A stretch of DNA of 64,000 nucleotides from Brooklawnia cerclae (GTDB taxonomy: Bacteria > Actinomycetota > Actinomycetes > Propionibacteriales > Propionibacteriaceae), in contig NZ_JAAMOZ010000001.1 of assembly GCF_011758645.1 (NCBI RefSeq), positions 62,001 to 126,000 of the forward strand. The letters run 5' to 3'. The notes under the pieces were generated by a model, which saw nothing but the letters and a program-made list of their open reading frames with translations, did no database searches and was not told where the DNA came from. The position numbers and the translations under genes were made by a program. Numbering within the stretch: the first letter of the stretch is position 1; each line of letters begins with the position of its first letter. Positions 17,305 to 36,232 of the stretch are shown piece after piece.

Positions 17305-17979
17305 TCACTGTGAGGGGTTGAGCCCGCGTTGGACGGCCCAGAGCACCAGTTGGGTGCGGTCGCTGGCGCCGGTCTTGTCGAGCATGTTGCTGATGTGCCA
17401 CTTCACGGTGTTCTCGCCGAGGCTGAGGCGGCTCGCGATCTGTTTGTTGCTCAGCCCGTCGGCCAGTGCGGTGATGACCTCGAGCTCCCGGTCGGTGAGC
17501 ACCGAGGTGAGCCGCTGGTCTTCGCCGGCCCGTGTCCGTTGCCCACTGCGACTCGCCTCGCGCGCGAAATCGGCTTGCAGACGCGCCCGCACGGCGGGGG
17601 ATTGCAGCGCGTTCGCGTTGACGGCCGAGCGGACCGCAGCGGCGATATCCCCGGGATTTTTCTTGAGCAGAAATCCGACAGCCCCGCGCTCGAACGCACC
17701 GTAGAGGTATTCGTCGAAGTTGAACGTGGTGAACACGATGATCGGGACGGGTTTCTCGACGCCGATTCCCGCGAGCGCCTCGATGGCGTCCAGCCCGTCG
17801 CCGTCGGGCATCCTCAGGTCCATGAGCACCACGTCGGGGTGTAGCTGACGGGCGAGGCGCACCGCGTCGACGCCGTTCCCGGCCTCGCCGATCACCTCGA
17901 TGTCATCCGTGGTCTCGAGTACCAGTCGCAGGCTGGCCCGGACGGCCGCCGCGTCGTCGACGATGAGGGTGGTGATCAT
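17305..17979 (-). CDS. NarL/LuxR-family response regulator
   Basis: 224-residue two-component response regulator. Receiver domain at residues 1-120: acidic pair DD at 8-9, phospho-acceptor Asp in VVLMDLRMPDGD (about 55), and Lys in LLKKNPGD. The C-terminal LuxR-type HTH is LTDRELEVITALADGLSNKQIASRLSLGENTVKWHISNML. It overlaps the kinase gene by four bases (ATGA). Its targets are not shown. The divergent surface phosphate-type cluster is a good candidate. Confidence 0.9.
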   Translation of the reverse strand: MITTLIVDDAAAVRASLRLVLETTDDIEVIGEAGNGVDAVRLARQLHPDVVLMDLRMPDGDGLDAIEALAGIGVEKPVPIIVFTTFNFDEYLYGAFERGAVGFLLKKNPGDIAAAVRSAVNANALQSPAVRARLQADFAREASRSGQRTRAGEDQRLTSVLTDRELEVITALADGLSNKQIASRLSLGENTVKWHISNMLDKTGASDRTQLVLWAVQRGLNPSQ

Positions 17980-19872: not shown

Positions 19873-21000
19873 ATGCTGACTCCTGAAGGGCCGAACCCCG
19901 CCGACGATGGGGAGGCTCCGACCTCTCCGGCTTCGGCGCGCGATGCCGCGCTGGACCAACTCGATCGGGAACGGAGATCCATGCGCGAGTTGGGGCTGGA
20001 CCCCTCGCCCGCGCCTCGTGCGGCACGGGTCGACCCGAGCCGGGCGATCGCGAGCAGCGCCGGTATAGGCGATCGAATATTCAAGGTCACCGCGCACGGC
20101 GGCGGGGTACTGGTGCTGCTGATCATGTCGTTGGTCGGCCTGTTCCTGCTGTGGCGAGGTTTCCGTGCGATCGATGTCGCTGGCTGGTCGTTCCTCACCA
20201 CTCAGGATTGGGAGCCCAACAGCGGTCACTTCGGTGTCGCGGCGGTGTTGTTCGGGACGATCACGATCGCGCTGATCGCGATCCTCGTCGCCCTTCCGCT
20301 CGCATTGGGCGTCGCCACCTACATCTCGGAATACGCCCCCGAGGGTATGAAGCGCTTGTTCACCAACATCATCGATCTGATGGCGGCCATTCCTTCGGTT
20401 GTCTACGGCCTATGGGGGATGTTCTGGCTCGAGAACAGGCTGCTGCCGGTGGCGCAGTGGATAAGTACCTGGTTCGGCTGGATTCCCATCTTCTCGGTGA
20501 CCGCGTTCGATCCGGACAACCCGTTGGCCACCCCGACGGTGTTCACCGCGTCGGCCACGCTGGCAGGCCTGGTGGTGGCCATGATGGTCGCCCCGATCGC
20601 TGCCTCGATCATGCGTGAGGTGTTCGCGCAGGCTCCCACGGGCGAGCGGGAGGGCGCGCTGGCGCTGGGGTCGACGAAGTGGGGAATGATCACCTCGGTG
20701 GTGTACCCGTTCGGTGTCGGCGGCATCATCGGCGGGACGATGCTCGGCCTGGGCCGAGCGCTGGGCGAGACGATCGCCGTCTATCTGGTGATCAGCCCGA
20801 TCTTCGTCATCAACCCACATCTGCTGTCGACGGGCACGAACAGCATTTCCTCGTTGATCGCGCTGCGCTACGGCGAGGCGAGCGACTTCGAGCTGTCGGG
20901 CCTGATGGCCGCGGGTCTGGTCCTGTTCCTGATCACGATGGCCGTGAACTTCGTAGCCGGCTTCATCGTCAACCGATCCCGTTCCGGGGCATCGAGCTAG
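19873..21000 (+). CDS. pstC: Phosphate-type ABC transporter permease PstC
   Basis: 375-residue inner-membrane permease. A roughly 70-residue polar N-terminal tail precedes six or more membrane segments. PstC hallmarks are GVATYISEYAPEGMKRLFTNIIDLMAAIPSVVYGLWGMFW and the coupling loop GEREGALALGSTKWGMI. The ATG at 19873 is used because upstream in-frame codons lack start codons near the domain. It is followed after 13 bases by pstA with an AGGAGG site. The tail of acidic and Ser residues (ERRSMRELGLDPSPAP) is longer than usual for PstC. Confidence 0.88.
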   Translation: MLTPEGPNPADDGEAPTSPASARDAALDQLDRERRSMRELGLDPSPAPRAARVDPSRAIASSAGIGDRIFKVTAHGGGVLVLLIMSLVGLFLLWRGFRAIDVAGWSFLTTQDWEPNSGHFGVAAVLFGTITIALIAILVALPLALGVATYISEYAPEGMKRLFTNIIDLMAAIPSVVYGLWGMFWLENRLLPVAQWISTWFGWIPIFSVTAFDPDNPLATPTVFTASATLAGLVVAMMVAPIAASIMREVFAQAPTGEREGALALGSTKWGMITSVVYPFGVGGIIGGTMLGLGRALGETIAVYLVISPIFVINPHLLSTGTNSISSLIALRYGEASDFELSGLMAAGLVLFLITMAVNFVAGFIVNRSRSGASS

Positions 21001-21013
21001 GAGGAAGATCGCG

Positions 21014-22267
21014 ATGGCGATCTCTGTGGTGAATCCGCCTGTTGTGCGCACGCATGTGCCGGGTCGGGAGAAGGGGCCGGATGGCTCCATGCAGACCGCC
21101 CAGCGGGGGATAGAGCAGCGGCGCAATCTGGGGAAGATACGTCGCGAGGACGTGTTCCGGCTGGTCGGTGCCGTGGCGGGGGCGATCGGCATGACGAGTT
21201 GGCTGTTCACTCAGGTGACCCCGTTCCACGGCGGGTTGCCGTTCGTGCTGATCGCCTATGTGCTGTTTCTGGGGATGTTCGTCGTGCTGATCAGCTTCGA
21301 CGACGACCGGGTGACGATCAAGGACCGTGTGATGGCGGTGATCATCCACTCGGCGGCTGTGGTGCTCCTGTTGGCCTTGGTGGTCGTGGTGGTGTTCACG
21401 CTGGGCCGGGGCTCGGAGGCTTTCCTGCACTGGAACTTCTGGGTGCAGGACCTGGCATTAGCAGGCCCGCTCGATCCGTTGACCGTGGGCGGCATGGCGC
21501 ACGCGGCGCTGGGCACCCTGTACATGATCTCGATCTCGCTGGCGATCTCGATTCCGCTGGCGCTGCTGACGGCCGTGTGCATGTCGGAGTTCCCGTCGCC
21601 GTTCACCCGGATGGTGCGGACGGTGACCGAGGCGATGACGGCCCTGCCCTCGATCGTGTGCGGCCTGTTCATCTATGCCACGTACATCCTGCTGCTCGGC
21701 TTCGACAAGTCGGGGTTCGCCGCGAGTCTGGCGGTGACGATCATGATCCTGCCGATCATCACTCGTTCGGCCGATGTGGTGTTGCGCCTGGTGCCGCAGA
21801 CCCTGAAGGAGGCCGCCCTGGCCACCGGCGCCAGCCGTTGGCGAACCGTGTGGCATGTGGTGCTCCCCACCTCCCGGTCTGGCCTGATGACCGCGATCGT
21901 GTTGGGGACCGCCCGTGGTATCGGCGAGACCAGCCCGGTGCTCTTGACTGCCGGTTACACGACGTTCTTCAACCTCAACCCGTTCAGCGGCCCCATGGTG
22001 TCGCTGCCGTTCGCCACGTTCACCTTGGTGAAGAGCCCCGAGCCCACTCAGATCGCTCGTGGTTTCGGTGCCGCGGCGGTGCTCATGGTGCTCGTTTTCC
22101 TGCTGTTCATGATCGGACGCATCATCGGCGGCAACGGCGCAGGGGTTTTGACGCCCCGTCAGCTCGCTCGCACGCGACACGCCAGCCGTCGCGACCTGGC
22201 ACGGCTCGAAGGACGCTTCGGCGCGCCCTCATCGGCTCGCCAGGGGGCGGAGGTCAATCGTGTATGA
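21014..22267 (+). CDS. pstA: Phosphate-type ABC transporter permease PstA with extra N-terminal membrane segments
   Basis: 417 residues, well above the usual 280-300 for PstA. The core permease (from about residue 160) has ISIPLALLTAVCMSEF, VTEAMTALPSIVCGLF and the coupling loop LKEAALATGASRWRTVWHVVLP. Before it are three additional hydrophobic segments (about 45-65, 75-92, 112-130) and a basic 40-residue N-terminus. The C-terminal 50 residues are a charged tail. The extra segments may form a docking platform for the exported partners encoded downstream, which is inference. It overlaps the next small gene by eight bases. Confidence 0.87.
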   Translation: MAISVVNPPVVRTHVPGREKGPDGSMQTAQRGIEQRRNLGKIRREDVFRLVGAVAGAIGMTSWLFTQVTPFHGGLPFVLIAYVLFLGMFVVLISFDDDRVTIKDRVMAVIIHSAAVVLLLALVVVVVFTLGRGSEAFLHWNFWVQDLALAGPLDPLTVGGMAHAALGTLYMISISLAISIPLALLTAVCMSEFPSPFTRMVRTVTEAMTALPSIVCGLFIYATYILLLGFDKSGFAASLAVTIMILPIITRSADVVLRLVPQTLKEAALATGASRWRTVWHVVLPTSRSGLMTAIVLGTARGIGETSPVLLTAGYTTFFNLNPFSGPMVSLPFATFTLVKSPEPTQIARGFGAAAVLMVLVFLLFMIGRIIGGNGAGVLTPRQLARTRHASRRDLARLEGRFGAPSSARQGAEVNRV

Positions 22268-22607
22268 GGTTCAAAACGCCGATGTGGCTAGGAGAAACTC
22301 TTTGTTCACCCATTGGTTGCCATTGAAGGGCTGTGAATTTTCCTTGTCTGTCCCTAGCGTCAGTTATGCAAGTTTGCTGGATCTGAATCGCGTGAACGAC
22401 AACCCCCAAGCATTCGACACGTCGAGCGGTACACCCCCCGAAGACCACCAGTACAACGATGAGCAAGACCGGGTCTCTGTGACGAGCCGGTCGAAGGGAG
22501 CCGATCCCGAGAAGTCGGCATATTACGACGACAAGCTCGCCGAAATTCTTGACGAGAGATTCGCCCCCGCTGTCGCTGATGACTCCCCCCAGGAGAACAA
22601 ACGATGA
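22260..22607 (+). CDS. Small acidic hypothetical protein in the Pst surface cluster
   Basis: 115 residues from GTG 22260, with GGAGG six bases upstream. It overlaps the pstA stop and ends in an ATGA overlap with the next gene, so it sits inside a tightly coupled operon. The second half is very polar and acidic (PPEDHQYNDEQDRVSV, SAYYDDKLAEILDERFAP). No signal peptide or family is seen. The DNA is lower in GC than its neighbours. A later GTG at 22393 is an alternative start. It is possibly a cytoplasmic accessory of the transporter. Confidence 0.5.
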   Translation: MYEVQNADVARRNSLFTHWLPLKGCEFSLSVPSVSYASLLDLNRVNDNPQAFDTSSGTPPEDHQYNDEQDRVSVTSRSKGADPEKSAYYDDKLAEILDERFAPAVADDSPQENKR

Positions 22608-24442
22608 TCGTCATCGCCCGTCTTCTTCACGTCGGTTCGCGCCGCGCTGCCCGCGTGGGCCTGCGCCGCACCCTTGTGATGCTGCTCAGCCTGGCGATGG
22701 TCGTGGCGGGAATGTTCGGGGGCGGATCGCAAGCCATGGCTGAGGGTGCGTTCCACTCGCCGATCACCGGTTCCGGGTCCACCTGGTCGGCCAACGCTTT
22801 GCAGGCGTGGATCCGCAATGTGTGGGCGAACTACCAGTGGAAAATCACCTACAGCGAGTCGGGTTCGACGCAAGGCCGCAACGACTTCGCGAACGGCACC
22901 GCCGACTTCGGTGTCTCCGAGATTCCCTACGCCATCTCGAACTCCAACGAGGGCGATTCCCGCCCGGCCCGCGGCTTCGCCTACATGCCGATCGTGGCCG
23001 GCGGCACGAGCTTCATGTACAACCTTCAGATCGGTGGCAAGCAGGTGACCAACCTGAGGCTGTCGGGCGAGACGATCGCGAAGATCTTCACCGGGGTGAT
23101 CACGGTGTGGAACGATCCGGCGATCCAGGCGGACAACCCGCAGCTGGCCCTGCCGGCCACTCCGATCGTGCCGGTGGTGCGCTCCGACGGCTCGGGAACC
23201 AGTGCCCAGTTCACGCTGTGGATGCGCCAGGAGCAGACCTCGCTGTGGAACGACTACTGCAACAAGGTGGGCCGCCCGCTCATCAACGGGGCGTGCGGCG
23301 TCACCTCGAACTACCCAGTGGTGGCGGGCAGCGGGTTCGTCTCGCGGGCGGGCGCCAACGGTGTGGCGGGATATGTGGCTCAGTCGCATGCAGTGGGCTC
23401 GATCACCTTCGTGGAGTACTCGTACGCCCTGAACTCGAAGTTCCCGGTGGTGAAAATGCTGAACAATGCCGGCTACTACGTCGAGCCGACGGCCGCCAAC
23501 GTGGCGGTGGCGTTGTTGCAAGCCCATATCAACGAGGACGAGTCGAGCCCCGACTACCTCACCCAGGACCTGCACGACGTGTATGGCGACACGGATGCGC
23601 GCACCTACCCCCTGTCGAGCTATTCGTACATCATCCTGCCCACAACGCTGGGCTACAACTTCACCGAGGAGAAGGGCCTGACGCTCGCGGACTTCGGAGC
23701 CTACTTCTTGTGCGAAGGCCAGCAACAGGCCGAGTCGCTGGGCTACAGCCCCCTGCCGATCAACCTGGTGCAGGGCGGTCAGAAGCAGATCCAGAAGATC
23801 AAGGGCGGAAACCCCACCATCAAGGGCATCGGCGACTGCAACAACCCGACATTCACCACCGACGGCACGAACCGGCTCGCCAACGAGGCGCCGTACCCCG
23901 CCGACTGCGACAAGCAGGGTCCCATCCAGTGCTCCAAGGGCACCGGCGGCGCCAAGGACACCGAGACCGACACGACCCGGGATACCGACACCAGCAGTGG
24001 TGGTGACGGCGGCGACAGGACGGGCGGGAATGGCACCAACGGGAATGGCACCAACGGCGACAACACGTCGGACAACCCGGACGCGGCCACTGATGCCGTC
24101 AGCGACGGGTCGACCGGCAGTGGCTTGAACAACCAGAACGGCGCGGCCGCCGTGGTGGCCGGGAGCCCGCAGTCCGTCCCTGTCGCCTGGACGAATCCCT
24201 TCCTGGTGCTGGCCATGATCGCGGTCGGCGCGATGGGTGTGGGCTTGGCGGTGCTTCCGCCCCTGGTGGTCGCCCGGCGCCGCCGTGGTGCGCCGGCCGT
24301 TGACCTCTCGGTTGATCTCTCGGTCTTGCCACCACCTGCCCCGCCGGCCCCGCCCGCTTCTTCACCGGTTTCCAGTTCGACCGCGCCGGCTTCTCCCCGG
24401 AACGGTCAAGTCATCCCGTTCGCGAGGAGGTACCAGGCATGA
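22604..24442 (+). CDS. Membrane-anchored PstS-like phosphate-binding surface protein
   Basis: 612 residues. A signal peptide ends near AMA-EG at 46. A PstS-type domain (about 47-390) carries the ligand-loop motifs: ITGSGSTWSANALQAW, YSESGSTQGRNDFANGTADFGVSEIPY and RSDGSGTSAQFT, which in PstS bind the phosphate oxygens. A Gly/Asn/Thr/Asp linker of about 90 residues follows (GGNGTNGNGTNGDN). One membrane helix (about 535-557) and a basic then Pro-rich cytoplasmic tail complete it. Most PstS proteins are free or lipid-anchored, so C-terminal anchoring is unusual. It starts in a four-base overlap with the gene before. Confidence 0.8.
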   Translation: MIVIARLLHVGSRRAARVGLRRTLVMLLSLAMVVAGMFGGGSQAMAEGAFHSPITGSGSTWSANALQAWIRNVWANYQWKITYSESGSTQGRNDFANGTADFGVSEIPYAISNSNEGDSRPARGFAYMPIVAGGTSFMYNLQIGGKQVTNLRLSGETIAKIFTGVITVWNDPAIQADNPQLALPATPIVPVVRSDGSGTSAQFTLWMRQEQTSLWNDYCNKVGRPLINGACGVTSNYPVVAGSGFVSRAGANGVAGYVAQSHAVGSITFVEYSYALNSKFPVVKMLNNAGYYVEPTAANVAVALLQAHINEDESSPDYLTQDLHDVYGDTDARTYPLSSYSYIILPTTLGYNFTEEKGLTLADFGAYFLCEGQQQAESLGYSPLPINLVQGGQKQIQKIKGGNPTIKGIGDCNNPTFTTDGTNRLANEAPYPADCDKQGPIQCSKGTGGAKDTETDTTRDTDTSSGGDGGDRTGGNGTNGNGTNGDNTSDNPDAATDAVSDGSTGSGLNNQNGAAAVVAGSPQSVPVAWTNPFLVLAMIAVGAMGVGLAVLPPLVVARRRRGAPAVDLSVDLSVLPPPAPPAPPASSPVSSSTAPASPRNGQVIPFARRYQA

Positions 24443-27400
24443 GCCTCGTGTCGCGCATCCTGCGTGCCCGGTGGGCCGGGATCCTCCGTCCCTGGAACGC
24501 CCCCCACATGGGCCGGAATGGCGTTCTCCCATGCTCCGTGGGCGAGGGATTCACCTCGCTCCCGGTCGCTCTCGCCGCCCGGCGCGGCGAACAGACCAAT
24601 CCCCCAGGAGGCGCACCCCATGGAACGGCAGAAGGATCGACGGCGACGCGAGCGCGAGCAGCAGAAGAGGCGTCAGCAGAAGCTCTTGCGCAGGAAACAC
24701 AGGGATCAAGGCCCGAAGAAGGGTTCCGCGCAGGCCAAGGAGATCGCGCTGGCCAAACGACAGGCGAAGCTCATGAGGGTCGAGGAACAGACCTCTCTTC
24801 CCTCTCTTCCGGCTCGTCTTCTGCCGTCGCTCGGGAGTTTCCGTTTGCCGGAGTTGCGCGGCCGAAACGCCTTCGGCCCCGCGCCGGAGCGCTGATCGCG
24901 GCCCTGGCACTGGTCGCTGCGTTCGGGAGTACCGGCCTCTCACCGGTGATGGCCAGCGCCGACGAGACGGACTCGGGCTCGTCGCTGACGGTGAAGTGGC
25001 TGAACGACGATTCGACCGCCGCCAGCCTGCAGCCGGAGCGCGAGACGACGTGGCTGAGCGAGGAAAAGGGACTGTCGCGGAACCCGCACTACGACGACTT
25101 CAAGAACCTGCAGGTCACGGTCAGCCAGACCGAGGACCTGACCGACCAGACGATCACCATCGACGTGACGGGCATGCCGGGAGGCAGCGTATCCGGACAC
25201 TCGGGCATGCCGGGGATCAGCTCGTCCACCGGCTACCCGTCGTACGTGCAGAACTACCTGCAGGTGATGCAGTGCTGGGGCGACCCGACGGACGACGATT
25301 TCGAGGAGACCTGCCAGTGGGGCGGGCTTGTGTTGGGCAGTAGTAGTTCGCAGGCGCTCGTCGCCCAGACGGTGGTGTACACCGATGGGGGCGCTCGCGA
25401 CGGGTCTGTCCCGTTCCGCACGGTGCAAGACAAGGAGTACTGGTCAAACGAGTACCTCGCCCCCGACGGTGCCTCGCTGTTGGGCAATCTGCTCAGCCCC
25501 TCGACGACCAACGACGTGCTGGCCTGGCCGGTGAAGGCCGACGGCACGACGGCGGTGCACTTCGCTCTGCAGAGCAGCACCTCGGCGCCGTGGCTGGGCT
25601 GCGGCGCCGACGACGACGGGAGTCCGCGCTCCTGCTCGATCGTGATCGTGCCCCGAGGCACGATCTACGGTAAGTCGAGTTCGCACTACGGCGCCTCCTA
25701 CGGCCAAGCCGGGGCGCAGTGGGGCGGGCCGCTGGACACCGACGCGGACTACTGGGACAACCGGATCGTGATCCCGCTCGACTTCCAGTCCCCAACCACC
25801 GCCTGCGACGCTGCCGGCACGACGCACACCGTCGGCGGCTCGCAGCTGATGATCCAGGCGATGCAATCGTGGCAGCGCGGCATTTGCACCGACGAGGGCC
25901 AGGGCTACAGCTACAGCACCGCCTCCGACTCACGGGCCCGCAGCAACCTGCTACAGGGCATCTACGATTTCGGCCTCACCTCGCGCGCGATCAAACGCGA
26001 AGAGCTGGACGAGACGGACTACGACGCCTACGACAACGCCGAGGTGGCCTATGCCCCGCTGGCGATCTCCGGTATCACGATCGGCTTCAACATCATCGGC
26101 ACGAAAGGCGTGCAGAACGATATCAAGCTCACACCGCGGCTCCTCGCGAAGCTTTTGACGCAGTCATACACGTCCGCGGTGCCGTCCTACACGTCCAACT
26201 TCCACTACGAGCACCTGTCGTCCAAGAATCCGAGCACCCTTCTGAACGATCCCGAGTTCAAGGCGCTGAACCCCGATATCAGCGTTAGCCCGTATCCCTA
26301 CGGCCTGGCCGACATGATCATCATGGGCCCCTCGGGCTCCGACGGCATCCGCCTGCTGTGGCAGTACCTGCAGTCTGACGACAAGGCCCGGGCCTTCCTG
26401 GAGGGGAAGACCGACAACGTGCTGGCCGGTGACGAGGGAAACTCTGGCATGACGATCAACCCCTACTACCTGCCCAAGGGCGATCCGAACGCGAAGGTAC
26501 CGGAGACCGAAGAGGTGGTCACGACCGAAGGGGCACAGACGGTCAGCACCATCCAGCTGGTGACTGACGCGAGCGGCAACACGGTGTACCGCGAGGTCGG
26601 GCTCACCGACTCCGACGGTAACCCGCTGAACCTTGCCACAGGCGTAATCGATACTTTCCCGCAGGCCGACGAGACCGAAGTTCCGTGGAGGATCGTAACC
26701 GCGGGTGGGCTGGCGACCGCCGTGCGCTCGCGAACGGACACCACGGCCTACAACCCCTACGGCGAGACCTTCTCCGACGTCGCGAGCCGGGTGGCCAAGG
26801 CCGACACGAAGCGGGCGACGTGGGACCCCACCGCCATGAACAGCGCACAGGAGGCTGGCGTGTGGAAAACCAGCGACAGCGTGCAATTCCCGCCCAGGAT
26901 CGGGGTGCTGGGCACTACCGACACGGCCTCGGCCGAGAAGAACGCGCTAGCCACGGCGCAGCTGCAGCTGCCCAACCAAGAGGGCGTTTTCGTCTCGCCC
27001 ACCGAGGGCACGATGACCGCGGCGCTGTCGGCGCAGACCGCACAGGATGACACGTCGGGCACCATTTGGGCCGACTTCTCGAAGCTCTCCAGCGACTCCT
27101 ACCCGCTCACACTGGTGACCTACGGGGCGCTGGACCTGCCTGAGGTGAGCGCCGAGGACCGGGAGTCCTACGCCGACCTGATCGAGTTCGCGGTCACCAC
27201 GGGGCAGGCGTCCGGAACCCGCCCTGGCCAGCTGCCATGGGGCTACGCGCCACTGACCGATGAGCTGGTGGCTCAGGCCCTGGCCGCGGCCGAGCGCATC
27301 CGCAACTGGCTGCCCTCCACGGGTGATGGCGACACGGGTAGTGGCGGCACGACCTCGGATGGTGACCAGAGTTCCTCGACGGGCGACGGGTCGGCTGGCA

Positions 27401-27612
27401 CTCAGGCCACGAACCCTGCGACATCGGCGGACGACTCCACGCCGAGCTCCAACGCCTCGCAGTCGACCACCGAATACAGCCAGGCCGCCACTACCGAGCG
27501 CGGCTCGACCGCCGCGTTCATCGGCGCCGCCGCGCTCGGCGCCATGCTCCTGGTGGGCAGCGTCGGCGCGGCGGTGGCGCCCCTCCTCCTGCGGCGCAGG
27601 AGCGACAAATGA
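24439..27612 (+). CDS. Large membrane-anchored PstS-like surface protein (start uncertain)
   Basis: The frame runs 1057 codons from ATG 24439 (ATGA overlap with the preceding stop), but the export signal (RAGALIAALALVAAFGS) lies only at about residues 148-165, and no ATG, GTG or TTG occurs in frame near it. From 24620 to 24895 another frame is better coding sequence, so the N-terminus is unresolved. The ectodomain (about 175-1000) contains a PstS-like lobe (GVQNDIKLTPRLLAKLLTQ, VSPYPYGLADMIIMGPSGSDGIRLLWQYL). A Ser/Thr linker, a membrane helix (about 1026-1048) and the tail RRRSDK end it. It is the second anchored binding-type protein of the cluster. Confidence 0.65.
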   Translation: MSLVSRILRARWAGILRPWNAPHMGRNGVLPCSVGEGFTSLPVALAARRGEQTNPPGGAPHGTAEGSTATRARAAEEASAEALAQETQGSRPEEGFRAGQGDRAGQTTGEAHEGRGTDLSSLSSGSSSAVAREFPFAGVARPKRLRPRAGALIAALALVAAFGSTGLSPVMASADETDSGSSLTVKWLNDDSTAASLQPERETTWLSEEKGLSRNPHYDDFKNLQVTVSQTEDLTDQTITIDVTGMPGGSVSGHSGMPGISSSTGYPSYVQNYLQVMQCWGDPTDDDFEETCQWGGLVLGSSSSQALVAQTVVYTDGGARDGSVPFRTVQDKEYWSNEYLAPDGASLLGNLLSPSTTNDVLAWPVKADGTTAVHFALQSSTSAPWLGCGADDDGSPRSCSIVIVPRGTIYGKSSSHYGASYGQAGAQWGGPLDTDADYWDNRIVIPLDFQSPTTACDAAGTTHTVGGSQLMIQAMQSWQRGICTDEGQGYSYSTASDSRARSNLLQGIYDFGLTSRAIKREELDETDYDAYDNAEVAYAPLAISGITIGFNIIGTKGVQNDIKLTPRLLAKLLTQSYTSAVPSYTSNFHYEHLSSKNPSTLLNDPEFKALNPDISVSPYPYGLADMIIMGPSGSDGIRLLWQYLQSDDKARAFLEGKTDNVLAGDEGNSGMTINPYYLPKGDPNAKVPETEEVVTTEGAQTVSTIQLVTDASGNTVYREVGLTDSDGNPLNLATGVIDTFPQADETEVPWRIVTAGGLATAVRSRTDTTAYNPYGETFSDVASRVAKADTKRATWDPTAMNSAQEAGVWKTSDSVQFPPRIGVLGTTDTASAEKNALATAQLQLPNQEGVFVSPTEGTMTAALSAQTAQDDTSGTIWADFSKLSSDSYPLTLVTYGALDLPEVSAEDRESYADLIEFAVTTGQASGTRPGQLPWGYAPLTDELVAQALAAAERIRNWLPSTGDGDTGSGGTTSDGDQSSSTGDGSAGTQATNPATSADDSTPSSNASQSTTEYSQAATTERGSTAAFIGAAALGAMLLVGSVGAAVAPLLLRRRSDK
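24620..24895 (+). CDS. Small very basic protein overlapping the large surface-protein frame
   Basis: 91 residues in the +1 frame relative to the large frame. ATG 24620 has AGGAGG at 24606-24611 with good spacing, the strongest ribosome site in this stretch. Third positions are strongly G/C, unlike the competing frame here. The first half is a Lys/Arg/Gln-rich helix (MERQKDRRRREREQQKRR...). Its TGA (24893-24895) overlaps a CTG that is in the large frame, right at the signal peptide. Either this is a separate gene, or a frameshift joins it to the surface protein. Confidence 0.5.
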   Translation: MERQKDRRRREREQQKRRQQKLLRRKHRDQGPKKGSAQAKEIALAKRQAKLMRVEEQTSLPSLPARLLPSLGSFRLPELRGRNAFGPAPER

Positions 27613-27623
27613 ACAACACAAAG

Positions 27624-27728
27624 GTTTCTTCCCCCGGCACCCGCCGGACAAGGGAAGGAAACGGCCCGGCGTAGTCCCCTGGGAAAGGTCACACCGGGCC
27701 GCATGGAGCCTCCCACCTGGGTGGCTCC
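27624..27728 (+). other. Three-hairpin structured leader before the third PstS-like gene
   Basis: Stem 1 pairs GTTTC-TTCCC (27624-27633) with GGGAA-g-GAAAC (27652-27662) around an inner CCGGC-accc-GCCGG hairpin. Stem 2 pairs CGGCCCGG (27662-27669) with CCGGGCCG (27694-27701). Stem 3 pairs GGAGCC (27705-27710) with GGCTCC (27723-27728), continued by CCC and GGG. It lies in the 146-base gap after the large surface protein and could be a terminator-attenuator or an RNA regulatory element. No known riboswitch consensus was recognised. Confidence 0.5.
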
Positions 27729-27758
27729 TGATACAACCAGAAGAGGATAACTGGCAAA

Positions 27759-29054
27759 ATGAAAACAATCAAAAGAGTCGTGATCGGTGCCCTCGCGGGC
27801 ATTCTCACGACCGGGCTCGCGCTGACTGGCTTCAGCAGCCAGGCCTCCGCCGATCCGGCCTCGACGAGCACCTATGGTCAGCTCGTTGCGGTCGGCAGCG
27901 ATACGCTGCAGGACTTCGGCAACGGCCTCAGCACCGCGCTCGGCAACGTCAGCGGCACCAGCACGCTCAAGCTGGCGTCCTACGACGCGACCGGCAGCTC
28001 CACGATCCAGACCCGTTCCGGTGGCGTGTCGTTCACCCGGCCGAACGGCTCGGGCGACGGTGTCAAGGCGCTGAGCGCCTCGGCACAGGGCACCATCTGG
28101 GGCGGCGCGAACCTCTCCGGTCAGGTTGACATCGCTCGCTCCTCGAGCAAGTACACGACCTCTACGGTAAGCGCGCTGGCCTACGTGCCGGTCGGTGTGG
28201 ACGCCGTCACCTACGCGACCTCGTCCGACTCGGCCATTCCGAGTGGGATCTTGGAAGGTGACGTCTCCCAGGATGGCGTTGGAACGTGGGATTCTGAGAC
28301 GGGGACGGTCCACCCTGCGGATCTGACTCTGCGGAACATCTTCCAGGGTAACGGCTATCTGGAGGGCACGATCAGCAGCGTCACCTACAAGTTCTACTCC
28401 GGCGCGGGCAACCCTGCTGACGGTTCGGGCTACACGAAGCTGAACGTCTACGTGCCACAGTCCGGCTCGGGCACCCGCTCGTTCTGGGCGAGCACCCTTG
28501 GCTTCAGCAACAGCAGTCTGCCGGCTGGAGTGAGTGACACATTCGGGCTGTACAACCCCGACACCGAGGTCACCACAACGACCGATGTGCAGGAGCACAA
28601 CGGGCTTGTGGTGACTAAGCCGGAGGCTGCGACGGAAACCGAGCAGGCCGAGCAGGGCAACCAGAACTGGGAGACGGCGATTGTGCCGTTCTCGATCGCG
28701 CAGTACGTCGCGCAGACCAACGCGGCAGAGGGCACCCTTTCCGGTGTGACTGATCGTCGTCACGGCGCAGAGTTGAACTCGGTCGGTAATGTAGCTCCGA
28801 CTAGCGGCGGGGCGCTGAACTCGAGCTTCCCGATCAAGCGGGACGTCTACTTCGTGGCCACCACCGCGCGTCTGACCAACCCGACCACGGATGCGGACAG
28901 GCTGCTGGCCAAGTTCTTGATCAACAGCGGCACTGCGGACATCCCGTGGATCGGCAGCACCGCGCTGCAGAGCACGATCACCAACTACGGCTTCGGCACT
29001 GGCACCGCTGACACGCTTGGTGCAATCGCAGGCTACAACTCCTACCAGTCCTGA
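27759..29054 (+). CDS. Secreted PstS-like substrate-binding protein
   Basis: 431 residues. A signal peptide (MKTIKRVVIGALAGILTTGLALTG...) is cut near SQASA-DP at 32. The mature protein begins GQLVAVGSDTLQDFGNGL and later has VPQSGSGTRSFW, corresponding to the PstS oxyanion loops, and ends FGTGTADTLGAIAGYNSYQS. It has no C-terminal membrane helix, lipobox or sorting signal, so unlike its two partners it is released or held by protein contacts, perhaps through the WxL/DUF916 pair. AGAGGA lies 11 bases before the ATG. A strong terminator follows. Confidence 0.75.
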   Translation: MKTIKRVVIGALAGILTTGLALTGFSSQASADPASTSTYGQLVAVGSDTLQDFGNGLSTALGNVSGTSTLKLASYDATGSSTIQTRSGGVSFTRPNGSGDGVKALSASAQGTIWGGANLSGQVDIARSSSKYTTSTVSALAYVPVGVDAVTYATSSDSAIPSGILEGDVSQDGVGTWDSETGTVHPADLTLRNIFQGNGYLEGTISSVTYKFYSGAGNPADGSGYTKLNVYVPQSGSGTRSFWASTLGFSNSSLPAGVSDTFGLYNPDTEVTTTTDVQEHNGLVVTKPEAATETEQAEQGNQNWETAIVPFSIAQYVAQTNAAEGTLSGVTDRRHGAELNSVGNVAPTSGGALNSSFPIKRDVYFVATTARLTNPTTDADRLLAKFLINSGTADIPWIGSTALQSTITNYGFGTGTADTLGAIAGYNSYQS

Positions 29055-29095
29055 GCCATCGAATCTAGATCTCGTTTGAGACCTAGATGAAGAAC

Positions 29096-29135
29096 GTGGT
29101 TCCGGGGCGTTGCCGGTTCAACGCCCCGGAACCAC
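29096..29135 (+). terminator. 17-bp perfect hairpin after the third PstS-like gene
   Basis: GTGGTTCCGGGGCGTTG and its exact complement enclose a six-base loop, 42 bases past the stop. There is no T run, but the stem is the strongest in the window outside the tRNA-side repeat. It probably ends or attenuates transcription between the PstS-like genes and the WxL-type genes. Confidence 0.7.
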
Positions 29136-29281
29136 CCGGGATCGTCATCTACGGCCCGGATATTGAACCCAGAAGCGCTTCGGACCAGAAGTGTAGAGCC
29201 GGTCGTTAAGCAGCAAGGTCCCGGGGGCGGAGACGTCGTTCCCCAGGGCCGTTGCCAGCAGACCGAGAAAGGTACTTAGTG

Positions 29282-30625
29282 ATGACTATCAACCGATCCC
29301 AGGCCTCTCGTCGGTTGCGGGCCTGTTTCGTGGCGGCCGCCGTCGGTGCCCTTGCGGCTACAATGTTCAACACTGTTTCTGCCCACGCCGCTATAGGTGA
29401 CTCCACCGACTCCAACTACCTTGGGGAGTTGACGGTCACCCCGACGAGCGGCAACTCGACCGACACCCCGCCGTTCACGCAGCTCTCAGCCCAGCGGGCC
29501 GACGGTACCGGCTGTCCTGATGGCTACAGGACGTGGTCGCGTGTGGTCTTGTTGAATCCGGCGACCGGCTCGTTCAACAGCATCGCAACCATCCGTTCCA
29601 CTACCGGAAACACGACCGGCTTGAACGGCAGCGCGATCGTGCTGACCGGAAATTATGCGGCCACCACATCACGGGCTCTAAACGACAGGGCCGCGTGGAC
29701 TGAGGTCAGCGTAGGGGCGTCGGCAAAGGTTCTTCTGACATGTGAGGCCACCTACGATCCGAACACTGGCGCGCTCACTCCGTTGGATAGTGCGCTGTAC
29801 TTCGCCGCTACCATCCAGAAGGACACCGACACCACATGGAAGATCGTGTCCGGCACCTCGACGGAGAAGACCCCGACCACCACGACGGTCGCGTCCTCGA
29901 ATGTGGCCCAGACCTCGGCCACGTTGACCGCCACAGTGTCCCCGGCTGAGGCCACCGGCACGGTGACGTTCACCAGCGGCAGCATTACCGCGACCGGAAC
30001 GGTGACCGATGGCGTGGCCACGGCGGATGTGCCGGGCCTGACTGCGGGCACCGAGTACACCTTCACCGCTGCCTACCCCGGTGATGATGCCTACGCGGCG
30101 TCGGACAACACGGTCACCTTCACCACTCTCGCCGCAGAGGAGCCCACTACACCGAGCGACAGCAATGACACCAACATCAAGGTGAACGTGCCCGAGGTCG
30201 GCGGCACCACCGTGGCCGGCGGCTTGACGATCTCCCTTGCGCCGGGTGTCAGCACCCTGACCGGTGGGGCTCGTTCCGAGGGCCAGGCATGGGAGGCCAC
30301 CGGCCAACTCGGCTCGGTGACCGTGAATGACGATCGCCGGGACGCGAGCGCCGATGCGTGGACGCTCAGTGGTACGGCTTCCGACTTCACCGGTGCGGGA
30401 ACGATCTCGGCGTCCGCGCTGAGCTGGACCCCGAGCAAGGAGTCCGGTGCGGGCGAAGCGGGCAGTGCGTCCAGCGACCTGTCGAAGTCCTCGCCGCTGG
30501 CCACCGGCGCCGCCTCGGCCGACACGAACGTGACGACCACGGTGAACGCTGGCCTCAAACTGGTCGTCCCGAGCGACAGCGCTGCGGGCAACTACTCCTC
30601 GAAGCTCACCCTGATCCTCATCTGA
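29282..30625 (+). CDS. WxL-domain surface protein with an Ig-like repeat
   Basis: 447 residues. The signal peptide ends near SAHA-AIG (about 36). After a 150-residue N-terminal region there is a bacterial Ig-like domain (TTTTVASSNVAQTSATLTAT..., YTFTAAYPGDDAYAASDNTVTF). The C-terminal about 150 residues look like a WxL domain: IKVNVPEVGG, SVTVNDDRRDASADAWTLSGTASDF, and the closing KLVVPSDSAAGNYSSKLTLILI. WxL domains bind peptidoglycan non-covalently and pair with DUF916 proteins, and such a gene is next. The ATG at 29282 has AGAAAGG nine bases upstream. Confidence 0.7.
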   Translation: MTINRSQASRRLRACFVAAAVGALAATMFNTVSAHAAIGDSTDSNYLGELTVTPTSGNSTDTPPFTQLSAQRADGTGCPDGYRTWSRVVLLNPATGSFNSIATIRSTTGNTTGLNGSAIVLTGNYAATTSRALNDRAAWTEVSVGASAKVLLTCEATYDPNTGALTPLDSALYFAATIQKDTDTTWKIVSGTSTEKTPTTTTVASSNVAQTSATLTATVSPAEATGTVTFTSGSITATGTVTDGVATADVPGLTAGTEYTFTAAYPGDDAYAASDNTVTFTTLAAEEPTTPSDSNDTNIKVNVPEVGGTTVAGGLTISLAPGVSTLTGGARSEGQAWEATGQLGSVTVNDDRRDASADAWTLSGTASDFTGAGTISASALSWTPSKESGAGEAGSASSDLSKSSPLATGAASADTNVTTTVNAGLKLVVPSDSAAGNYSSKLTLILI

Positions 30626-30803
30626 TCCCGGCTTGAGCGATGATGTTCGGGTGCTCTCGTCGTCCGGTTCATGCCGGGCGACGGGAGCATTCGCGCGGTG
30701 CCGCCCCGTCTTCGATGCCCGTCGGCTTTCCGACCTTGTGTCCGCTGTTTCCCATGCCTGTCTCTGCTCACGTTTTCAGCCACTGGCCGTTGGAGTGCTC
30801 CCG

Positions 30804-32021
30804 ATGATCTCTCGCCGTCCTGTCCTTCTTTCTCCCGAGCCTTCTTCGGCCCCGGATTCTGTTTTTTCCCTCGTTCCGCTCACTACCCGAACTCCGAATA
30901 GTTCTACGACGGGTCGTCTTTCCGCCCATGGGCTAATCCACCGTCTCGGTGTGCTCAGCGTCGTACTGCTCGTCGTGGCCTCGTTCGCGGGTGTGGGCGG
31001 TGGAAGCCAAGCGTTTGCCGACGCGGCAGACGTCACCTTCGGTGTACAGCCATCGACGGCGACCGGCCCCGACGGGCGCGAGCGGTTCGACTTCAATGTG
31101 GCGCCCAGTACGGTGATCAGCGACTGGGTGGCCGTGACCAATTCGTCGACGAGCGAGATAACCGTTCGGCTGGTGGGTGAGGACGCCACCACCGACTACG
31201 GTTCCGGTGAGTTCACCTTGGTGGGCACAGACGTGCCCTCCACCGATATAGGGGCATGGACGTCGGTGAACGGCGAAGCGTCCACCTGCCCCGACATCAC
31301 CGCCGATCAAGCGCAGGCATGTCTGCCGACATTGGGTGCCGCTGTGAGGCTGCAGCCCGGCGAACAAGCCAACGTGCCATTCACGTTGACCGTGCCGGCC
31401 GACGCGACCCCGGGCGACCACGCGGGCGGGATCGCGGCGATCTACACGACGACGCAACCGGGGTCGGACGGAATCAGCACGCCGGTGGAGGTGCATGTGG
31501 GCACCCGGGTGTACTTGCGGGTGGACGGCCCGGTGAGTCCAGGCATGACGATGAGCGGCCTGGTGTCGGGCTACGACGGCGGCTGGAATCCGTTCGACGG
31601 CACGGCGCGGGTGAGCTTCGATCTGGCGAATGCGGGCAACTCGCGGGTGTCCGCGGCCACGAGTGTTGTCGTGAAGGGGCCGTTCGGCCTAGGACGGCAT
31701 GAGTGGCAACTGGCCGACACGAAGAATCTGATGCCGGGGAAGACGGCGCACATCACCGCGGACCTAGAAGGCGTGCCGGCGTGGTTGCTGCTGTTCGCCG
31801 ACGTGACGGTGACTCCGTTGGCGGCCGACGGGACGGCGGCTTCCGATCCCCTGCCGGATGCTGTGACGGCTTCGACGATGACGTGGGCTGTGCCATGGAC
31901 GATCCTCGGAGCGATCGTGGTGGTGGCGGGTGTGGTGCTGCTGGTGCGTTGGCGACGTCGTGAGCGGCGTCTGCTGGACGAAGCCCTCGCCGCCGCTCAG
32001 ACGCAGCAGCCGGCGAACTGA
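30804..32021 (+). CDS. DUF916-type (WxL-interacting) membrane-anchored protein
   Basis: 405 residues from ATG 30804, with GGAG eight bases upstream. A longer in-frame extension has no signal. The signal helix is GVLSVVLLVVASFAGVGGGSQAFA-DA (about 49-75). The DUF916 domain follows (VTFGVQPSTATGPDGRERFDFNVAPSTVISDWVAVTN and TPGDHAGGIAAIYT). A second beta domain leads to one membrane helix (AVPWTILGAIVVVAGVVLLV) and a basic tail. In Firmicutes, DUF916 proteins hold WxL proteins at the wall. Here it directly follows a WxL protein. Confidence 0.78.
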   Translation: MISRRPVLLSPEPSSAPDSVFSLVPLTTRTPNSSTTGRLSAHGLIHRLGVLSVVLLVVASFAGVGGGSQAFADAADVTFGVQPSTATGPDGRERFDFNVAPSTVISDWVAVTNSSTSEITVRLVGEDATTDYGSGEFTLVGTDVPSTDIGAWTSVNGEASTCPDITADQAQACLPTLGAAVRLQPGEQANVPFTLTVPADATPGDHAGGIAAIYTTTQPGSDGISTPVEVHVGTRVYLRVDGPVSPGMTMSGLVSGYDGGWNPFDGTARVSFDLANAGNSRVSAATSVVVKGPFGLGRHEWQLADTKNLMPGKTAHITADLEGVPAWLLLFADVTVTPLAADGTAASDPLPDAVTASTMTWAVPWTILGAIVVVAGVVLLVRWRRRERRLLDEALAAAQTQQPAN

Positions 32022-32121
32022 GGGGAGCGGTTTTCCACAGGCCGAGTTCTTTTGACCATCGGCGCGGTACGTCACCAATAGTCATGGTGTCGTCGCGCCG
32101 GTGTGCGGCAGAATGGAGGCC

Positions 32122-32535
32122 ATGATCGTGACGGTCGAGGTGTGGAGTGCCATCCTCACGGGCCTTGGCGTGCTCGTCGCGGTGCTAGTCGGTATGTGGG
32201 GCATGTTCACTTGGTCGCACAAGCAGATAAAGACCGATATGGACGCTGGTTTCGCCCGTGTCGATGAGCGTTTCGTCCGTGTCGATGAGCGGTTCGAGCA
32301 GGTCAATCGACGGCTTGAGCAGGTTGACCGACGGTTCGAGCAAGTCGATCAGCGCTTCGACAGGATGGATCAGCGTTTCGAGAAGATGGAACAGCGTTTC
32401 GAGAAAATGGATCAGCGTTTCGAGAAGATAGATGGGCGGCTGGCCGGGATCGACAACAGGCTCGGGGAGCTGGGTGAACGTATCGCCCGTCTTGAGGGCC
32501 CCGAGCCGCGGTTGTACGTACCCGCCCGTCGTTAG
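32122..32535 (+). CDS. Membrane-anchored heptad-repeat coiled-coil protein
   Basis: 137 residues from ATG 32122. GTG 32128 has a better-spaced GGAGG, and ATG 32113 is also possible. The N-terminal helix (VWSAILTGLGVLVAVLVGMWGMFTW) is a membrane anchor. It is followed by about eleven near-perfect seven-residue units of the type (V/M)D(E/Q)RFE(Q/K), a parallel coiled coil, then a short tail. At DNA level the units form a 21-bp tandem repeat that could change number by slippage. A palindrome follows the gene. Its role is unknown, perhaps a spacer or trimerising stalk. Confidence 0.7.
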   Translation: MIVTVEVWSAILTGLGVLVAVLVGMWGMFTWSHKQIKTDMDAGFARVDERFVRVDERFEQVNRRLEQVDRRFEQVDQRFDRMDQRFEKMEQRFEKMDQRFEKIDGRLAGIDNRLGELGERIARLEGPEPRLYVPARR

Positions 32536-32572
32536 CGCGATCCGGAGCGATCAGACTCCGAGAAGAAGAACT

Positions 32573-32590
32573 CCGGGCATCGATGCCCGG
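32573..32590. terminator. Palindrome after the coiled-coil gene
   Basis: CCGGGCATCGATGCCCGG is fully self-complementary and is followed by CCCCTTCTTTTGG, so it resembles a factor-independent terminator for the plus strand. Confidence 0.55.
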
Positions 32591-33090
32591 GAACACCCCT
32601 TCTTTTGGATGGTTTTCACCGGCTGCTCGGCGAGTTGACCTGCCCGGGATGCGGCCCGAATAGCGAGCTTTGTGGTCAGCCCCTCAAACCTGAAGGGTAA
32701 GGCGGCTTGTCAGACTTCGTTGCGACGTGCAACGAAGTCGAAGAGCAGGCTTGTCACTTGCTGTTCATGTTCAGGTTCCCTGTTGTGTGCCCAATTGGCA
32801 TGCCACAACGGTTTGTACCTCGTAGCGGGCGATGTGAGCATGGGTGAGACGCCGAATCTCCAAGGCTCGGCGTGGTGCGCCAACCCCGGGTCGCGCTGTC
32901 GATCAGGAGCATGCAGTCCACGGCGCATTGGAGGACCTGTGTTGACGATTCATGCCCGTCCTCGCCTCGGCCCTGGGCCGGGTGCGTTAGCGACATTCCG
33001 TGTTCCGGTGTCCCCTTTTCCGGGGCAGCACATGCTTGCCCCCAAATCTGCCACCGCGGCAACCGTGCCAGAGAGAAAGAAGAAAGCACA
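32591..33090 (+). other. 500-base structured gap upstream of the anchored surface protein
   Basis: No gene is supported. Hairpins are seen: GACTTCGTTGC-gacgt-GCAACGAAGTC (32713-32739, perfect 11 bp), ACGCCGA and TCGGCGT (32849-32873), and CCCC-ttttcc-GGGG near 33012-33025. GGCTTGTCA occurs twice around the first hairpin. It may be a long structured 5' leader. Confidence 0.4.
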
Positions 33091-33957
33091 GTGAAGTCAG
33101 TCCGTAGCCGCACCCTCCGCGCCCGGTTTGTCGCCGGCTGGGCAGTCCTGCTGTGCGCAGCCCTGGTGGTGCCTGGTGCGGCCCGCGCACAGGCGGAAAC
33201 GAACGCCACCAACGACTCTGATATCAACGTCGTGGTGCCGGAGGCAACGCCGACCGCCACAACGCCGCCGCCGACCACGGCGCCACCGACTACAACGCCG
33301 CCTACTGCCGACGGGGACAACAACGGCGGCGGCAACAACGGAAATGGTGGCGGCGGTAGTGGCAACAACGGAAACGGCAACAACGCAGGCACCGGCGGTG
33401 GCGTCAGCGTCACGAGCACACCGTCGTCGTCCGCCAATACGACCAGTTGTGCGTCCACCGAGCCCTCGGTGCCGAGTTCCCCGGCCAAGGCCGGCAACGA
33501 AGCTAGCTTCGACAAGGACATCTACTACCAGGGAGACACCGTCAACGTGACGGCCAATCGGTTCACCGCCGGTGAGCAGGTGCAGTTGGTGGTGTTCTCA
33601 GACCCGACGCTGATCGGAACTTTCGCCGCGGACGAGACGGGCACCGTGCGCGCGACGTTCACGGTGTCCGACTCCATGACGACCGGAGCGCACACTCTGC
33701 AATTCACTGGTTGGTGCAAGACGGTGGCACTGGGCAGCGTGCTGATCGGCTCCACCGGGCAGGGGCAGGCGCACACCTGGCTGGCCTCTGTTCCTGTCGC
33801 GGTGTGGTGGATCCTCGGCGTGCTACTGGTGCTGGCGCTCGCCTACGGCGCGTGGCGCGTTTGGCGCGTCCTGTCCGAATCGGACTCCGACAGCGGTCGG
33901 CCGGCCGACGGACAGCAGATCAACGGGGCGACTACGAAACCGGGGGCGTCCGCGTGA
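33091..33957 (+). CDS. Membrane-anchored surface protein with Thr/Pro and Gly/Asn linkers
   Basis: 288 residues from GTG 33091. The signal peptide ends near ARA-QA (about 33). Then come NDSDINVVVPE, which echoes NDTNIKVNVPE of the WxL protein, a Thr/Pro stretch, a Gly/Asn stretch, and an Ig-like domain (about 125-215: DIYYQGDTVNVTANRFTAGEQVQLVVF). A membrane helix (WWILGVLLVLALAYGAW) and a polar cytoplasmic tail end it. There is no LPxTG signal. It overlaps the sortase-like gene by four bases, so the two products are probably made together. Confidence 0.72.
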   Translation: MKSVRSRTLRARFVAGWAVLLCAALVVPGAARAQAETNATNDSDINVVVPEATPTATTPPPTTAPPTTTPPTADGDNNGGGNNGNGGGGSGNNGNGNNAGTGGGVSVTSTPSSSANTTSCASTEPSVPSSPAKAGNEASFDKDIYYQGDTVNVTANRFTAGEQVQLVVFSDPTLIGTFAADETGTVRATFTVSDSMTTGAHTLQFTGWCKTVALGSVLIGSTGQGQAHTWLASVPVAVWWILGVLLVLALAYGAWRVWRVLSESDSDSGRPADGQQINGATTKPGASA

Positions 33958-35033
33958 GCAGTGGAACTGATCGTCCGACGCAAGGCCCTCAGCTGACGCC
34001 CGCTTCGTCGGGGAGCGGCACTCAGGTCACGTCCGCCGACGAAGGCTCGTCCCCTGGAGTGGGGAGCGCCCCCGGCGCGGGCACGACGCCGGCGACCGAG
34101 ACTCCCGCACGACCGATTCCAGCGAGGATTCAGCGGCGCGTCGAACGGCTGCGGGCGGCGTCGGCGAGGCCTCGTCAGCCTGTGGAGCGGAACGGGCGGT
34201 GGTGGTTCGGGGTCGTGGAACTGACGATCTCGCTGCTGTTGCTCGCCTTCGTGTTCCACGCCACGCTGTTCACCTCGTTTCAGTTCCGTGCCGCACAGAG
34301 CAACGCCTACGACCAACTGCGCACCGAACTGGCGAAGGCGGAGACGCCGACCGGCCCGCTGAACACCGATGAGAATTTGGTGGTGGCAGGTTCGCCGGTG
34401 GCTCTCCTGCAGGCGCCTTCGATCGGGCTGAGCGTGACCGTGCTCGAAGGGTCGTCCTCCGAGGTGCTGCGCAGCGGCGCGGGCCACCGACGCGACACGG
34501 TGATGCCGGGGCAACCCGGCACCACCGTGATACTGGGGCGCCAACTGACGTACGGCGGTCCGTTCGGCAGCCTGAAGGATCTGCAACCCGGTGACGAGAT
34601 CACCGTCACCACCGGGCAGGGGGTGAGCGTCTACCGGGTTTTCGGCCTGCGCCGCGCGGGCGATCCGCTCCCCGAAGCACTCCAATCCGGCCAGGGCCGG
34701 TTGGAACTCATGACCGCCGATGGGCTCGCACTGTTTCCCTCCGGTGTGCTGCACGTGGACGCCGAACTCATCACGAAGACCAACAAGGCGGCCGCTCAGG
34801 TGATCGCCTACTCAGCACTGCCGGCCGGCGAGAAAGCCATGGGGCAGGACCAGGGCGCCTGGTTCATCGCGTTCTTCTGGGGGGTCTTCTTCGTGCTCGC
34901 GGGCGTGACCGTGGCATGGCTGTGGAGGAATTGGGGCAAATGGCACGCATGGGTGGTCGGAATTCCTGTGTTGCTCGCCCTGGGCGTCACCACTGCGGAT
35001 GCCGTTATGAACGCATTGCCGAACCTTTTGTAA
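33954..35033 (+). CDS. Sortase-fold membrane protein lacking catalytic His and Cys (pseudosortase)
   Basis: 359 residues from GTG 33954 (GTGA overlap). A disordered 75-residue N-terminus is followed by a membrane helix ([18 protein letters not shown]) and an external sortase-like domain: [61 protein letters not shown]. At the catalytic His site (normally GH) it reads GR, and where TLxTC is expected it reads LELMTAD, with no Arg after it. So it keeps the fold but not the triad. Two C-terminal membrane helices follow. A binding or scaffold role is likely. Confidence 0.75.
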
Positions 35034-35080
35034 CTCCAGACCTGTTGGATTTTCCGAATGTCGAAAAGGAACGTGAACAC

Positions 35081-36202
35081 ATGAGCTTTGAAAACGAAAC
35101 CCCGGGAGGGGTCGCCCACGACCAAGCTGGGCGCGGGCAGTTCGCTTCGGGGCAGGCAGTGATCGGCCCTGACGACAAGACGCAAGTGCTGCCACCCGTC
35201 GTCCCCGGGACGACTCCCGCGGCTCCAGCAGGCTACGAGGTCTCGACATCGAGCGAAGTCGGAGCCGACGTGGCCGGATCTGCTCACGCCGAAGCCGCTC
35301 ACGGCGAGCGCGGCTACACGGAGCCCGTCTACGTCGAAACCACCGATGGCGAGACCACCCACGTTGGGGCTGCGGTCAGGTCGGCCGAGGAGGAACCTGT
35401 GGCGCCGGTTTCGGTGTCGGGTGGTGGTTTGTCGTTGTTGGAGGCGCGGGGGGTGTCGGCGTGGTTTGGGTCGCATCGGGTGTTGGAGGGGGTGTCGTTG
35501 GTGATGGGGGCGGGTGAGGTGACGGCGTTGATTGGTCCGTCGGGGTGTGGGAAGTCGACGTTTTTGCGGGTGTTGAACAGGATGCATGAGTTGGTGCCGT
35601 CGGCGTCGTTGGCTGGTGAGGTGTTGTTGGATGGTGGGGATGTGTATGGGCGGGGGTGGCGGTTGCAGGATGTTCGTCGGGATATTGGGATGGTGTTTCA
35701 GAAGCCGAATCCGTTTCCTGCGATGTCTATTTACGACAATGTGGTGTCGGGGTTGAGGTTGACGGGTCGGCGGGTGTCGCGGGATGTGAGGGATGAGATT
35801 GTGGTGCGGTCGTTGGTGAGTGCGGGGTTGTGGGGGGAGGTGCGGGATCGTTTGCGGCAGCCGGGGGGTGGGTTGTCGGGTGGTCAGCAGCAGCGGTTGT
35901 GTATTGCTCGGGCGTTGGCGGTGCGGCCGCGGGTGTTGTTGATGGATGAGCCGTGTTCGGCGTTGGATCCGACGTCGACGCGGGTGATTGAGGAGACGAT
36001 GGGGCAGTTGCGTCGTGAGGTGACGATTGTGATTGTGACGCATAATATGCAGCAGGCTGCTCGGGTGTCGCAGCGGTGTGCGTTTTTTTTGGCGTCGCAG
36101 GGGATGCCGGGTCAGATCGTGGAGTATGGGGATACTGATGCGATGTTTTCTGAGCCGCAGGATGAGCGCACCTTCGACTACGTCAACGGCCGCTTCGGAT
36201 AA
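35081..36202 (+). CDS. pstB: Phosphate-type ABC transporter ATPase PstB with N-terminal extension
   Basis: 373 residues. A 110-residue acidic, disordered N-terminus ([15 protein letters not shown]...) precedes a standard PstB domain: Walker [19 protein letters not shown], signature LSGGQQQR, Walker [20 protein letters not shown] and [10 protein letters not shown]. Ordinary PstB is about 255 residues. Between about 35396 and 36163 the third codon positions are nearly all G or T, while both ends of the gene use C-rich codons like the neighbours. This points to a recombined or foreign core. It closes the cluster that begins with pstC and pstA 13 kb upstream. No phoU is present. Confidence 0.85.
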
Positions 36203-36232
36203 ACCCGCACGATCCGCGCTGAATGACGTGTC

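Follow-up and report, generated by a model that had tools for sequence, protein, structure and literature searches.

A phosphate-type transporter module encoded at positions 19873-36202 of a 64,000-nucleotide stretch of the Brooklawnia cerclae genome (contig NZ_JAAMOZ010000001.1, positions 62,001 to 126,000 of the forward strand, 'the window' in what follows) is best read as one instance of an ancient, paralogous class that is widespread in actinobacteria alongside ordinary Pst. Its permease genes, pstC (19873-21000) and pstA (21014-22267), are parted from the ATPase gene, pstB (35081-36202), by 12.8 kb, counted from the end of pstA at 22267 to the pstB start at 35081; all three are on the plus strand, as are the genes between them. 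The separation, put at some 13 kb, and the gene positions had been given correctly in the original prediction, a reading of the window from its letters without database searches. The gene list here is based on open reading frames (ORFs), their translations and profile searches. PstC (TIGR02138, 250 bits) and PstA (TIGR00974, 197 bits) exceed the cut-offs of their models, and PstB, in which the Walker motifs including Walker B are present, reaches 329 bits (E 1.6e-98) with TIGR00972 against a cut-off of 343.

Component hidden Markov model scans of neighbourhoods in Actinomycetota allowed 64 module loci to be examined, the two from the B. cerclae genome included. Gene order is constant within each lineage, and the phylum-wide core consists of pstC, pstA, the genes for two proteins here termed PstS1 and PstS2 and that for a sortase-fold protein, with pstB nearly always present and a further gene, PBP3, in most (core-gene gaps that are losses at the ends of contigs or fetched regions being set aside). 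The co-occurrence is therefore neither local nor due to chance. As the loci were located via the PstS2 family (alignment A1), the counts pertain to the companions of PstS2 and not to the frequency of module-clade PstC without it. The order seen here is kept in the first seven other loci fetched: six belong to genomes of the same family, and the seventh, in which PBP3 went unrecognised, to Microbacterium album. Full-length PstS2-family matches are found in 15 of 198 genomes of the family, with none in the seven other genomes of the genus itself; at the level of the order, about 63 of 298 genomes have strong matches, which occur also in deeper branches of the phylum. One weak match (L091) is an ordinary Pst locus, and the module had no match among 72,556 plasmids.

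The same genome has a second, diverged cluster (C1:428044-441385) of identical order, pstC-pstA-PstS1-PstS2-PBP3-WxL-DUF916-surface protein-pseudo-sortase-pstB, and, as the two occupy separate branches when their PstC are placed in a tree, they did not arise by recent duplication. A third locus, at about C1:258.8-263.0 kb, is an ordinary pstSCAB, its PstS being a lipoprotein by its LSAC box, and adjoins a polyphosphate-kinase-like gene (a neighbour recognised by eye). All 26 carrier genomes tested have, outside the module, another PstC that exceeds the curated cut-off, which argues for an additional role of the module. Maximum-likelihood analysis of 43 module and 23 canonical PstC sequences separates the former from the latter by a single branch supported at 100/100, and the motif GR[AGS][LIVF]GE is present in each of the 43 module sequences. 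With the arrangement found across the phylum, twice in one genome and accompanied each time by a pstCA lineage of its own, the proposal that the pst and surface genes form one unit is upheld. A conserved chromosomal neighbourhood, menG/nuo beside the second cluster, was considered as well and rejected, as it was absent from all 43 further loci searched.

PstS1, PstS2 and PBP3

Three exported PstS-like proteins had been predicted, and all do have PstS folds, but not all appear to be capture proteins. PstS1 (22604-24442; PF12849 at 3.6e-37, TIGR00975 at 8.8e-60), a membrane-anchored receptor of phosphate-binding type, aligns along its length with solved PstS and retains the phosphate loop; its motifs GSGST, GST and RSDGSGTS are intact, with a loop of the RSDGSGTS type in nearly all PstS1. 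The position of E. coli PstS Asp56 is occupied by Glu in the PstS1 of this cluster; Glu is found there in the nine Microbacteriaceae-type PstS1 aligned, and Asp or Glu elsewhere in the phylum. Use of this Glu as a signature of the module was rejected, Asp being found in many module PstS1. A C-terminal hydrophobic anchor is present on PstS1 in 44 of the 44 loci scanned and on PstS2 in 42, the exceptions involving one broken frame and one fused reading frame. (In locus L037, the PstS2 reading frame is broken close to its 3' end.) A role of the PstS1 anchors as sortase sorting signals was also rejected, LPxTG occurring in one of 64 PstS1 and in none of 64 PstS2.

PstS2 (24439-27612), a giant anchored protein with an extra N-terminal region, and PBP3 (27759-29054) match no Pfam family, and their folds were assigned from AlphaFold2 models of single chains. 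For PstS2, the predicted local distance difference test (pLDDT) score is 65, with a core above 90; the 22 best Foldseek matches are all PstS or of phosphate-binding type, with target TM-scores of 0.61-0.80, and profile comparison with PstS1 by hhalign gives E 4e-11 over residues 298-799 of the folded segment. Its anion site is degenerate, the Asp56 column holding Arg, Lys, Tyr, Glu and others, and the loop SGT being lost. For PBP3 the pLDDT is 61.5, the 22 best Foldseek matches are all phosphate-binding-type proteins, and the SGSGTR loop is kept here and in most members. In common with the WxL-like protein considered below, PBP3 has a signal peptide only; it is secreted and has no C-terminal anchor. 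Given that PstS1 keeps all phosphate-site motifs, PBP3 a part of them and PstS2 none, the trio likely comprises two receptors and one scaffold.

The pseudo-sortase and the wall-facing proteins

The sortase-fold protein (33954-35033), which ends in C-terminal membrane helices, matches PF04203 at 5.4e-16 and scores 87 bits with the class E sortase model, whose cut-off is 160. In alignment with sortases of the PDB the catalytic His coincides with an Arg, and among module loci the His is absent in 43 of 43 and the Cys in all 42 that reach the Cys region; as a control, a sortase encoded at another site of this genome is intact (GHR...LVTC). Catalytic death had been predicted, and from its residues the protein, termed pseudo-sortase here, is indeed expected to be no enzyme. 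A median ratio of nonsynonymous to synonymous substitution rates (dN/dS) of 0.27 among close pairs indicates that it is maintained as a protein by purifying selection. The membrane helices end in LPNLL, and an LPNLL-like end is conserved in most members. Another sortase-fold protein of the B. cerclae genome, outside the module (L210, C3:122763-123158), seemingly lacks both His (VAGYR) and Cys (LVTSQD).

Of the wall-facing proteins, that at 29282-30625 has a variable N-terminal part, a Big_3_5 Ig-like domain and a conserved C-terminal domain. Its description as a WxL-domain protein holds for the motif but not for the Pfam family: a single W-x-L motif, not two, is invariant in nine sequences, and there is no match to Pfam WxL (PF13731) even at E<=1, so that 'WxL-like' is used here. 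Identification of its neighbour (30804-32021) as a DUF916-type (WxLIP PGBD) protein is firmer, PF06030 being over cut-off in it and matching nine of nine relatives, with a C-terminal helix as membrane anchor; DUF3324/HBD gave no match in the DUF916 proteins at E<=0.01. The cluster has one protein of each kind. A slot for a surface protein is filled here by type A (33091-33957), which is anchored, as predicted, and has a C-terminal helix, but for which a Pfam profile search gave no Ig family match; in other clusters a DUF916-like protein (type B) takes its place. The cluster had been thought to be built around WxL and DUF916. Both are present, but they occur in a minority of loci (being absent, for example, from L079 and L080, in genomes the size of those of Streptomyces, and from most loci of family f2), and are better seen as accessories of some lineages, with the core consisting of PstS1, PstS2 and the pseudo-sortase, commonly PBP3 also, together with PstCAB. 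A coiled-coil membrane ORF (32122-32535), also counted among the components, lies inside the cluster but has no counterpart in the equivalent place of other clusters, and is not a conserved member. Solo DUF916 proteins exist elsewhere in the family (L034, L036, L039-L041), some in the same genus, and are not beside a Pst module.

A proposed envelope-spanning importer and its rivals

The interpretation given somewhat better than even chances is that the module encodes an ancient, specialised, paralogous PstCAB importer of Actinomycetota that spans the envelope, takes up phosphate or a comparable oxyanion and has PstS2 and the pseudo-sortase for its scaffold. PstCAB would be a working ABC transporter. 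PstS1, held by a membrane helix and not by lipid, would bind phosphate or a similar oxyanion and feed it to PstCA, and PBP3, as another receptor, would be set free in the wall space, where it would probably collect ligand further out. PstS2 and the pseudo-sortase may be structural parts that position the receptors above the channel, and the WxL-like and DUF916 proteins, where present, may tie the complex to peptidoglycan. Retention of the PstC motif in 43 of 43 sequences and of the PstS1 site points to real uptake; that selection keeps PstS2 and the pseudo-sortase despite loss of their ligand and catalytic residues points to scaffolding. Anchors on PstS1, PstS2, the DUF916 protein, the surface protein and the pseudo-sortase, together with secreted PBP3 and WxL-like proteins, fit a complex that spans the envelope.

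Three observations weigh against this importer. The models of PstS2 and PBP3 are of moderate confidence (pLDDT 61-65). The residue at the Asp56 position varies among PstS1, being Glu in some and Asp in others, and ligand specificity may therefore differ. Further, a perfect PHO box, GTTCACC-N4-GTTCACC, is present at canonical pstS, whereas none is found at >=11/14 upstream of pstC in either the window's cluster (A) or the second one (B). A relative, L042, has a PHO box of 13/14, and such a box is a promoter property that is not required for PstSCAB membership.

Over 27 close pairs, which are non-independent, median dN/dS is 0.13-0.15 for PstC, PstA and PstB, 0.23 for PstS1, 0.34 for PstS2 and 0.58 for PBP3. 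The notion that the raised values of PBP3 and PstS2 are unique was rejected: evolution of canonical PstS likewise outpaces that of its own PstC, making the gradient alone unremarkable and leaving only the sharply bounded replaced blocks with raised synonymous divergence (dS) of note. In the pairs L032/L140 and L037/L038, identity across the clusters is about 80-95%, but falls to mostly 55-75% in a block with sharp borders that comprises PstS2, PBP3 and the N-terminal half of the WxL-like protein, with PstS2 dS at about 1.2-1.4 there and 0.3-0.5 elsewhere. This looks like replacement by recombination, and suggests that the proteins of the block fit each other or face outside. A broader proposal, to be held tentatively, is of a phylum-wide second class of Pst in which a pseudo-sortase and a pseudo-PstS serve as structural parts of a membrane-to-wall conduit to PstCA, with the outer subunits swapped as blocks between strains.

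Unlikely, though the strongest of the rivals, is that the module imports another anion, such as an organophosphate, a polyphosphate fragment or other oxyanion, and that its non-phosphate part is what PstS2 and PBP3 recognise. The long branch that separates module PstC would fit this, as would the Glu of the nine Microbacteriaceae-type PstS1, the constant presence of the module as an addition to canonical Pst, and the lack of a PHO box at both clusters of the genome; however, the phosphate loop persists in PstS1, which is scored as a PstS, Asp is retained in many module PstS1, and both PstS1 and PstC match phosphate equivalog models. Distinctly less probable is a sensor or energised surface machine, whose ABC core would sense or power an outer complex for adhesion, wall remodelling or signalling, uptake being secondary. 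There is far more external protein than any uptake system would require, two members seem to lack catalysis or binding, and the outermost proteins are the most variable, blocks with sharp borders having been replaced in two close pairs, but the PstC transport motif and the PstS1 site are conserved throughout, and no phoU or kinase was noticed in the conserved core, for neither of which was there a systematic search. That an unrelated surface island was inserted among the pst genes, a reading favoured by the differing host locus and by the lack of WxL/DUF916 in some clusters, has a negligible probability, being refuted for the core by its recurrence in 64 loci across the phylum with its own monophyletic PstC, and could apply only to the WxL/DUF916 accessory and the coiled-coil ORF.

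Related systems and further features of the cluster

Canonical PstSCAB likewise has PstC, PstA, PstB and a PstS with phosphate loop. The module differs from it in the separate clade of its PstC, in having a C-terminal helix anchor on PstS1 where canonical PstS has a lipobox (LSAC), and in the addition of PstS2, PBP3, the pseudo-sortase and wall proteins; the two coexist in 26 of 26 carriers. Mycobacteria, with multiple PstS (PstS1, PstS3), are alike in having several per genome, and the folds of Mycobacterium tuberculosis PstS3 and PstS1 are matched by module PstS2. The mycobacterial proteins are lipoproteins and are not known to be accompanied by a pseudo-sortase or giant PstS2. Class E sortases, for instance Streptomyces SrtE1 (5cuw), share the N-terminal part of the sortase fold, whereas the module member has no active-site His or Cys wherever readable and has C-terminal membrane helices.

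Clusters of WxL and DUF916 genes are known from Firmicutes (PMC10599100, PMC9772566), from which over 91% of described WxL proteins come (PMC9772566). The WxL/WxLIP (DUF916-DUF3324) clusters there, as defined in PMC10599100, also have a secreted WxL protein beside a DUF916 protein with C-terminal membrane helix. They have, however, a small and a large WxL protein where the module has one, with a single WxL motif and with no Pfam WxL or DUF3324 match, and the module is tied to a transporter. Neither sortases nor WxL nor a second pst are mentioned in a review of actinobacterial phosphate transport (PMC7866108). Searches of the open literature brought up no account of this combination, and a transporter with a dead-sortase surface complex is apparently undescribed. 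Its potential relevance is to the poorly understood passage of nutrients across the thick Gram-positive wall to membrane transporters, for which this conserved and widespread gene set seems built. The pseudo-sortase clearly exemplifies a sortase fold that selection retains in the absence of catalysis, and PstS2 is a substrate-binding protein that has lost its site and still accompanies a transporter.

Some further features merit mention. An ORF of 115 codons' worth of protein (115 aa; 22260-22607), overlapping both pstA and the PstS1 gene and with no family match, was overlooked in the predicted gene list, which otherwise held for the pst, PstS-like, DUF916 and sortase-fold genes. Its third-position GC is 0.64, compared with 0.74-0.87 for other module genes and 0.72 for the coiled-coil ORF, and it may be a gene or, alternatively, a spacer. 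A 17-bp GC-rich stem-loop lies 3' of PBP3 (29096-29135); over 57 loci, hairpins after PBP3 are stronger than those after other module genes (median best 50-nt energy -34.9 vs -19 to -26). The pstB genes of the two B. cerclae clusters share a 798-bp tract (window 35413-36210; C1:440588-441385) with one mismatch, the remainder of the clusters being 72-85% identical at best, and either the ATPase gene has recently undergone gene conversion or the tract is an artefact of assembly. Directly upstream of pstC, on the minus strand (17305-19394), are genes for a NarL-type histidine kinase (HisKA_3) and a probable regulator.

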